The translations under genes and the position numbers were made by a program. A DNA stretch of 64,000 nt. Origin: Lachnospiraceae bacterium (lineage in GTDB: Bacteria; Bacillota; Clostridia; Lachnospirales; Lachnospiraceae). The stretch's first letter is position 1, and every line of letters begins with the position of its first letter. This document shows, piece by piece, positions 1,089 to 3,006 of the stretch. The DNA is taken from NCBI GenBank assembly GCA_024699045.1, contig JAILQK010000019.1, positions 1 through 64,000 on the forward strand, in the 5' to 3' direction. A model generated the notes under the pieces. That model did not search any database and was not told the DNA's origin. It saw nothing but the letters and a program-made list of their open reading frames with translations.

Positions 1089-1117
1089 TTGACTAATCAA
1101 AAAAATCAAAATAAGAT
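1089..1117 (+). promoter_or_regulatory. Sigma-A-like promoter upstream of the ECF sigma gene
   Basis: TTGACT (1089-1094), 17-nt spacer, TAAGAT (1112-1117). Confidence 0.55.
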
Positions 1118-1176
1118 GATACAGAAAAAAAATAACGGACATAACGACCACTGACAGAGGGGAAAGACTGCATACG

Positions 1177-1680
1177 ATGGATATTGAACAGGTATATAAG
1201 GACTATCATGACAAGGTATTGAATTATATCCGGAGCAAAGTGGGAAATCCGGAGGATGCTGAGGATATCTGTTCGGATGTATTCCTCAAGGTTCAGAAAA
1301 AGCTTATGGATTATGACGAGGAAAAGGCCTCGGTATCTACCTGGGTCTATACCATAGCGCGCAATGCCGTCATAGATCATTATCGTACAAGACGGGTGGC
1401 TGAGGAGATCCCCGAGGAGCTGGCTTCCGATGATGAAGTCGATAACGAGCTGCTTAACAAAGAGACGCTTTCCGAGCTGGCGGAGGCACTGAAGAAGCTT
1501 TCCGAGGAGGAGAGAGAAGTGATAATCCTTCATTATTACGAAGGGCTTTCGCTGAAAGACATAGAGCAACGAACCGGACTGTCATACGGACAGGTGAAAC
1601 TGAGACACAACAGCGCTCTTAAGGAATTGAAAAAATTATTTTCCGGAGAGACTGCCAAAGGGACATTCCGTATCGTATAA
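1177..1680 (+). CDS. RNA polymerase sigma factor, sigma-70/ECF family
   Basis: Sigma2 'DAEDICSDVFLKVQKK...VSTWVYTIARNAVIDHYR' and sigma4 'LSEEEREVIILHYYEGLSLKDIEQRTGLSYGQVKLRHNSALKELKK'. Confidence 0.93.
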   Translation: MDIEQVYKDYHDKVLNYIRSKVGNPEDAEDICSDVFLKVQKKLMDYDEEKASVSTWVYTIARNAVIDHYRTRRVAEEIPEELASDDEVDNELLNKETLSELAEALKKLSEEEREVIILHYYEGLSLKDIEQRTGLSYGQVKLRHNSALKELKKLFSGETAKGTFRIV

Positions 1681-1720
1681 AGAAGTAGAAAGCGTGATGC
1701 GGAGATAAGGAGATGAGGAT

Positions 1721-2035
1721 ATGGCAGACAATATAGGAAATAAGATCAGGAAATTATTTGATTTCCAGCGTTTTGAGAAGGAGCCGGGATTACAGGATGT
1801 GATCGAGGATTCTCTTAACAACGTGGCGGGTGTCCGGAGACTGACGGAGACCGAGCTTGAAAACGCCGCCGGCGGAGTCCGGATAGGAAATGATATGAAT
1901 AATGTCGGAAAGGCTCAGACAGGGGTCGGCACGATCTCAAATAAAAGAAAATGTGAATGCGGAGGAGATATAAGGCTCCTTTCCGGAGGAAGAGGGGTTT
2001 GCGTCAACTGTAACAAGACGTTTTATGATCTGTAA
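1721..2035 (+). CDS. Small protein with double-glycine-type leader and C-terminal zinc-ribbon-like Cys motif
   Basis: 'LTETELENAAGG' resembles bacteriocin/Nif11-type GG leaders; C-terminus 'CEC-x16-CVNC'; TAATG overlap with the next gene. Confidence 0.75.
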   Translation: MADNIGNKIRKLFDFQRFEKEPGLQDVIEDSLNNVAGVRRLTETELENAAGGVRIGNDMNNVGKAQTGVGTISNKRKCECGGDIRLLSGGRGVCVNCNKTFYDL

Positions 2036-3006
2036 TGGATCAGACCGCTAAGGAGTCATATTCCGTTGCGATAATAGATATCATCAAAGCAGCCGCATGC
2101 CTGATGATATTTCTCTATCACTGCAATACGATCCTGCCGGGCGAGTGGAAATTTTTAACGGTGCTGGGTCAGGATCTGGGAAACAACCTGTTCTTTATGG
2201 TGAGTGGTTTTGCCCTCGCGCCTTCCGTTGATAAAACGGAGGGGCGGGGGTTTTTTTCGTGGTATGCAAGGCGGCTGGTAAGGATCCTGCCGATAACCGT
2301 TTTAGCTTATATCGCCACATATTTCATGGGATATTTTTCGCTTTCGGATATGTCACAGTTTATAGCGGTCTTTATCTATCCGACGCTGTACTGGTTCATT
2401 TCTTCGATACTCGTTTTTTACATAATCCTTTTTATCATTGCAAAGCTTGTCGGGACAAAGGGACAGATATTGATATGTCTGATCCTTTTTGCATTGTTCA
2501 TTGTCCTGTCCGGGAGACAGGAGAGGCTCTACGTTATAGGACTTCTGGCGATGATCGTGGGATATCTGCTGAGGCATCACGCCGAAGGATATGCAAAGGA
2601 AGACAGAAACAGTAAAGAAGGGCGGATCGTCTATGTCCTTATGGCAATTTCATTTATTGCCTTTATCTTTGGCAAGTCGACGGATCTCGGAGGGCTTTCG
2701 TACGGACTGACGGGGGCGGGCGCTTTGGGGGCAGGCGGTACGATGCTCCTTGCCGGGTCAAGGATGAATGAAAGCCTCTCGCGGTTCATGAAGGAGAAAA
2801 AATATGCGGGCAGCGTGATCAGATATACAGGAAACATGGCGCTTCCTTTGTATCTGGTCCAGTGCTTCTGCTCGGGATACATCGGCTTTTGGATCGGATC
2901 GCATATTGATTTTCCGGTCTCTTTCTGGATAAATTTTATCGTCGTCTGGGGCATCGGCACCGTTTTATATCTGATCAGCCGGATCTGTGCCCGGGTCATC
3001 TCATAA
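2035..3006 (+). CDS. Acyltransferase family (AT3-like) integral membrane protein
   Basis: 'IIDIIKAAACLMIFLYHCNTILPGE...NNLFFMVSGFALAPSV...RRLVRILP' pattern of membrane acyltransferases. Confidence 0.85.
   Translation: MDQTAKESYSVAIIDIIKAAACLMIFLYHCNTILPGEWKFLTVLGQDLGNNLFFMVSGFALAPSVDKTEGRGFFSWYARRLVRILPITVLAYIATYFMGYFSLSDMSQFIAVFIYPTLYWFISSILVFYIILFIIAKLVGTKGQILICLILFALFIVLSGRQERLYVIGLLAMIVGYLLRHHAEGYAKEDRNSKEGRIVYVLMAISFIAFIFGKSTDLGGLSYGLTGAGALGAGGTMLLAGSRMNESLSRFMKEKKYAGSVIRYTGNMALPLYLVQCFCSGYIGFWIGSHIDFPVSFWINFIVVWGIGTVLYLISRICARVIS

Follow-up and report, generated by a model that had tools for sequence, protein, structure and literature searches.

The three-gene locus

The window, by which we mean the whole 64 kb stretch of DNA that was analysed, contains three consecutive genes, for an extracytoplasmic function (ECF) sigma factor, a 104-aa protein with a double-glycine (GG) leader and a membrane acyltransferase (Table 1). 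Their places and their common forward strand agree with an earlier note on this DNA, as do the identities of the sigma factor and the acyltransferase, both of which scored well above the cut-offs of their models. The sigma factor contains sigma regions 2 and 4 and lacks region 3 in Pfam and NCBIfam, which is the composition of the ECF group. The TAATG overlap between the stop codon of the 104-aa gene and the start codon of the acyltransferase gene, also reported previously, is present (GATCTGTAATGGATC). The sigma70-like promoter that had been proposed upstream of the sigma gene does exist as a sequence, but sites of this type are as frequent in the region as expected by chance (3 observed versus 3.0 in shuffles), and it is weak evidence for a promoter.

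Table 1. Features of the locus (positions in the window)
Feature	Position	Strand	Evidence
Candidate sigma70-like promoter, TTGACT-N17-TAAGAT, upstream of the sigma gene	1089..1117	+	At shuffle expectation
ECF sigma factor gene, 167 aa	1177..1680	+	TIGR02937, 117 bits (cut-off 42.9); Pfam Sigma70_r2 and Sigma70_r4_2
ECF-type promoter, TGCCA-N15-TCGTATA	1653..1679	+	Overlaps the final codons of the sigma gene, including its stop
LFDYQ-family protein gene, 104 aa, double-glycine leader	1721..2035	+	Profile A1, E 1.4e-22
Conserved half: LFDFQ segment (from residues 12-16), then C39 recognition motif LTETELENAAGG	1721..1876	+	Alignment A1
Variable tail with zinc-ribbon-like cysteines C78, C80, C94, C97	1877..2032	+	Sequence positions
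Membrane acyltransferase gene, 323 aa	2035..3006	+	Acyl_transf_3, PF01757, 83.8 bits (cut-off 31)

The overlapping codons favor a reading in which sigma factor, peptide and acyltransferase form a bacteriocin-like cassette, with the peptide being acylated. The earlier note had raised both the cassette and the acylation, and neither is supported by comparison with the relatives of the 104-aa protein, which we call LFDYQ proteins. At all other LFDYQ loci examined the acyltransferase is absent, so that peptide acylation is not supported, and no recurrent modification, immunity or other enzyme gene stands beside the sigma/LFDYQ pair. The acyltransferase is a local neighbor outside the conserved pair and was rejected as its partner; we regard the acylated cassette as highly improbable. 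The suspicion that the 104-aa protein is not an ordinary bacteriocin is, for its part, supported.

The LFDYQ family

The 104-aa protein matched no Pfam or NCBIfam model (in NCBIfam, none at E<=1). Membership among the NHLP or Nif11 precursors was considered and rejected, as neither TIGR03793 nor TIGR03798 was matched. LFDYQ proteins are a new, unnamed family paired with an ECF sigma factor. Homologues resemble the 104-aa protein over residues 1-52 and diverge beyond, the family being defined by about 50 conserved residues that end in L[ST]DDELxxVxGG or AAG (consensus KL..LFDFQRFE.EP.L..VI....(n)LSDDELE.VAGG). One of them (L034) was found in a goat-rumen Lachnospiraceae metagenome-assembled genome. 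In the window's protein, the motif LTETELENAAGG occupies residues 41-52, with the GG at 51-52; Leu stands at positions -12 and -7, Gly-Gly at -2/-1, and Ala, instead of Val, Leu or Ile, at -4. The bacteriocin-type GG leader described earlier is thus present, and it lies above chance because the N-terminal ~51 residues that include it form a conserved family. The last ~20 leader residues match the end of a Nif11 leader (PDB 9zn4, E 0.0044), which was the only noteworthy PDB match for the fold of the LFDYQ segment.

The cysteines of the tail are spaced CxC-x13-CxxC, and not with the x16 given previously; several relatives have CxxC-n-CxxC. These cysteines may bind zinc. A structure model of low confidence (two-row input, pLDDT 52) places strands in the tail, as helix/strand hints only. 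Tails of the zinc-ribbon-like kind predominate in the window's clade. In other genera and on deeper sigma branches, the tails are hydrophilic and roughly 15-35 residues long, and the leader there mostly ends in AAG or SAG rather than GG. The earlier note had allowed that homologues might lack the GG motif, or be annotated as cytosolic zinc-ribbon proteins with no conservation of the leader. Many relatives do end in AG or AAG or are without a zinc ribbon, but the leader region is the conserved part of the family, and no library gives the 104-aa protein such an annotation. In G310 (L039) the tail is an SDxEL...DCY domain, which is also found behind short GG leaders in L045, L050, L225 and L230, tails having been exchanged at the GG boundary (L039 versus L050 and L225). 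The dN/dS ratio is 0.07-0.2 for the leader in most relatives and about 0.2-0.5 for the zinc-ribbon tail, indicating purifying selection on both; the short tail of one pair gave 0.61, a weaker constraint. At two loci (L059, L061), the sigma gene is flanked by an LFDYQ protein (AAG, short tail) and by a separate short-leader GG zinc-ribbon protein, so that the two halves of the window's protein are present there as two genes.

A canonical GG leader, a tail under purifying selection and the recurrence of zinc-ribbon tails after other GG leaders fit a reading in which the protein is an export substrate only. In that case a zinc-ribbon-like effector or signal (residues 53-104) would be secreted by means of a long leader (residues 1-52), the LFDYQ segment would dock to the exporter or to a chaperone, and the sigma factor would simply activate the gene. 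Against this reading stand the members in other genera, with their short hydrophilic tails and no GG.

Pairing with an ECF sigma factor

A strong match to the leader profile occurs in 28 of the 48 genomes of the genus, nearly always in single copy (the window's genome has one), and the sigma orthologue is single-copy in 31 of the 48. The sigma factor accompanies LFDYQ in all 28 genomes, and LFDYQ is missing from each of the 17 genomes that lack the sigma factor (p=2.7e-10, Fisher, uncorrected for shared ancestry). Because linked genes co-occur partly by descent, most weight falls on the eight genomes that keep both genes although these are kilobases apart or on separate contigs. Adjacent pairs are ordered sigma-LFDYQ or LFDYQ-sigma and overlap in some genomes. 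Among the neighbors of this sigma factor, no other gene recurs as steadily and no other recurrent one looks like an anti-sigma factor. Strong LFDYQ matches are also found in 8 genomes of the family outside the genus, and two further families of this class have LFDYQ proteins as well. The link to the sigma factor that the earlier note had suggested is borne out by co-occurrence, adjacency and a shared promoter; a dedicated partnership of the two, as a genetic link, is strongly supported. Such constant association with an ECF sigma factor is expected of an anti-sigma factor. Counted against the model set out below are three genomes with the sigma factor and without LFDYQ (G303, G304, G342), and a distance between the two genes of 7 kb or more in some genomes.

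The pairing, together with the frequency of AAG and AG variants, would also suit a protein that acts only in the cytosol as an inhibitor or activator of the sigma factor, the GG-like motif being the uncleaved end of a conserved helix and the tail a metal or redox sensor. Against such a regulator stand the motif of the window's clade, which is of the C39 leader type at -12, -7, -2 and -1, the Nif11 leader end as nearest PDB sequence match, and the swapping of tails at the GG boundary (L039 versus L050 and L225).

A promoter shared with GG-leader genes

A dyad count over upstream regions yielded the motif TGCCA-N14/15-TCGTATA de novo before GG-leader genes, and the consensus of 37 aligned sites is CTGCCA-N14/15-TCGTATAAA. 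The site at the end of the sigma gene lies 41 bp upstream of the 104-aa gene and is the single match to the exact pattern in the 64 kb window, where 0.02 are expected. Most LFDYQ genes of the window's clade have a related site upstream. The window's genome has 10 motif sites versus 3 for the reversed control pattern. A GG-leader ORF follows 8 of these 10 sites, one of the eight being beside the NHLM exporter on contig C136, and 14 of the 16 sites in G079; the controls gave 67 of 4000 random positions (1.7%) and 28 of 503 ORF starts in GG-gene-rich loci. Genomes with the closer sigmas have a mean of 7.5 sites, versus 1.9 in those without the sigma factor and about 1.2-1.5 for the reversed pattern.

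The position of the motif, its distribution together with the sigma factor and its ECF-type shape suggest that the ECF sigma factor reads this promoter. Most likely, the genes under its control encode GG-leader export substrates and are scattered over the genome, the gene of its own partner among them, and a promoter common to the 104-aa gene and other cargo genes would also fit the export-substrate-only reading. Two findings count against the model. Divergent sigmas mostly lack the motif, which confines the promoter rule to the closer sigma clade, and some sigma-negative drafts (G330, G314) still have GG genes preceded by the motif, for which missing contigs are a fitting but unproven explanation. 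The motif was upstream of HlyD/exporter operons in 2 of 29 cases and of the sigma gene itself in 4 of 38, and we therefore do not claim that this promoter directly controls either.

At a minority of motif sites, the gene that follows encodes a longer protein with an apparent signal peptide instead of a GG-leader protein (L278 in G000:C133, L298, L332), and the regulon may thus include some Sec-exported proteins. In L291 (G079:C11:2950-5600), three tandem GG-leader genes have near-identical leaders, identical promoters and differing short cores, suggesting recent duplication with change of the core.

Association with NHLP-type exporters

As the earlier note had stated, the 64 kb window has no exporter; that statement holds for the window alone, and the wider search that it had proposed found three C39 transporters in the window's genome, an incomplete draft, on contigs C136, C78 and C226. 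Contig C136 encodes an NHLM_micro_ABC1/ABC2 pair above the curated cut-offs. The C39 domains of C78 and C136 have the catalytic-Cys motif ECGA, in place of which the C39-type domain of C226 (L076, 3907-6042, reverse strand) has ENGAAA; this last is probably a non-cutting C39-like domain. On C78 (L074, G000:C78, 2683-13627), the C39 exporter stands beside radical-SAM-like ORFs and a GG-leader ORF, after which comes a long repeat of Cys, Ala and Gly (ACGGHACA...); this is a candidate locus for a radical-SAM RiPP in the window's genome.

In genera other than that of the window, the pair is part of or adjacent to an operon of the order HlyD-ABC1-ABC2-(GG cargo)-LFDYQ/sigma (L155, L158, L160-L163), and within the genus it is found at an exporter operon in L064 and L065. 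Three loci fetched after the hypothesis had been formed, two of them from other families, all had the order HlyD-ABC1-ABC2-LFDYQ-sigma. The six genomes of the genus without NHLM_micro_ABC1 all lack LFDYQ (p=0.003). Across 397 genomes of the family, NHLM_micro_ABC1 is present in 9 of 10 LFDYQ-positive genomes versus 40 of 397 overall (p=4e-9), and in the remaining one (G383) ABC2 lies where a contig ends.

Exporter operons with the pair often have STAS and HATPase-like genes, of the partner-switch type, which flank the pair in L049:3329-5563, L155 and L338:10313-11860. Genes for very short HlyD-like proteins (~75 aa), whose match to TIGR03794 covers just its first 44 positions, stand ahead of exporter or sigma genes (L064:3765-3992, L062:6519-6743, L055:1026-1250); in L062 and L055 the gene stands before the sigma gene without any exporter.

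These associations bear on both alternatives. Partner-switch-like STAS and HATPase-like genes near several loci would suit a purely cytosolic regulator, but the restriction of LFDYQ to exporter-bearing genomes would not, and we consider this reading unlikely. For the protein as an export substrate only, the difficulty is that leaders of 15-20 residues suffice for the other cargos of the same exporters, and that LFDYQ is single-copy and follows the sigma factor, not the number of cargos; we hold this reading to be doubtful.

Proposed mechanism

Our best explanation, with a probability of roughly 0.48, is a sigma-driven GG regulon with an LFDYQ anti-sigma partner that is exportable in this clade. 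The ECF sigma factor would transcribe scattered genes for small double-glycine-leader proteins, the substrates of NHLP-type C39/ABC exporters, and the LFDYQ protein would most likely be a small soluble anti-sigma factor dedicated to it. The 104-aa gene, transcribed from the sigma-type promoter at the end of the sigma gene, would provide negative feedback, its LFDYQ segment binding the sigma factor and inhibiting it. In the window's clade, this putative sigma-binding half continues directly into the canonical C39 motif and the zinc-ribbon-like tail, and the protein would probably be cleaved and exported by an NHLP/C39 exporter whose genes lie on another part of the genome, and thereby removed from the sigma factor. 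Members with AAG may dock at the exporter without cleavage. Two features of the leader count against the model: in members from other genera it mostly ends in AAG or AG, for which no cleavage by LahT-type C39 peptidases is known, and in the window's protein residue -4 is Ala and not Val, Leu or Ile. The further step, that the C39 ABC exporter removes LFDYQ and so tunes cargo transcription to free export capacity, is more tentative.

Comparison with known systems

The NHLP and Nif11 (N11P) precursors and the NHLM transporters are known families (TIGR03793, TIGR03798 and TIGR03794/03796/03797; Haft et al., 2010, PMC2887384), and that paper nowhere mentions a sigma factor. The LFDYQ system resembles them in its exporter family, members of which are encoded by the window's genome and next to LFDYQ pairs, in a leader that ends in a Gly-Gly-type motif with a variable tail behind it, and in precursors that are scattered in the genome. 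It differs in that the LFDYQ leader is homologous to neither the NHase-like nor the Nif11 type, and in being single-copy and tied to a sigma factor. Double-glycine leaders cut by C39 exporters are typified by Gly-Gly (or GA/GS) at -2/-1 and by hydrophobic side chains at -4, -7 and -12. For LahT150 from Lachnospiraceae C6A11, 13 leader residues are enough for C39 recognition, and Thr is tolerated at -4 (PMC6363468). As in AMS/PCAT LahT leaders, the 104-aa protein has the recognition residues Leu-12, Leu-7 and GG (PMC6363468); unlike them, it has Ala at -4 and an additional conserved segment upstream, and many relatives have AG or AAG.

Like the partners in ECF sigma/anti-sigma pairs, LFDYQ is small, adjacent and co-inherited, and has an ECF-type promoter. 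It differs in that it is not a transmembrane anti-sigma, it contains no known anti-sigma domain in Pfam or NCBIfam, and it lacks the HxxxCxxC motif of the zinc-binding anti-sigma (ZAS) type. Assignment to the latter was rejected on this ground and because members in other genera and on deeper branches have no Cys tail. FlgM is an anti-sigma factor that is relieved by export, through the flagellar type III apparatus. The export route proposed for LFDYQ differs, being a C39 ABC exporter, and its binding to the sigma factor is here a prediction. In a literature search that covered few subscription papers, no report was found of a GG-leader anti-sigma factor or sigma partner, or of an NHLP-linked sigma factor or regulon.

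Significance

NHLP/Nif11-type exporters and small GG-leader proteins are widespread among the Clostridia of gut and rumen, yet neither their regulation nor most of their cargo has been explained. One sigma factor, one promoter motif and one partner protein here define a regulon, so that DNA sequence is enough to compile a list of cargo, and this list takes in many zinc-ribbon-like GG proteins which would fail a bacteriocin search. If the export-coupled anti-sigma were true, it would constitute a FlgM-like checkpoint in a system without a known one, and removal by the exporter of the partner that regulates its cargo would be a new way to match peptide production to export.
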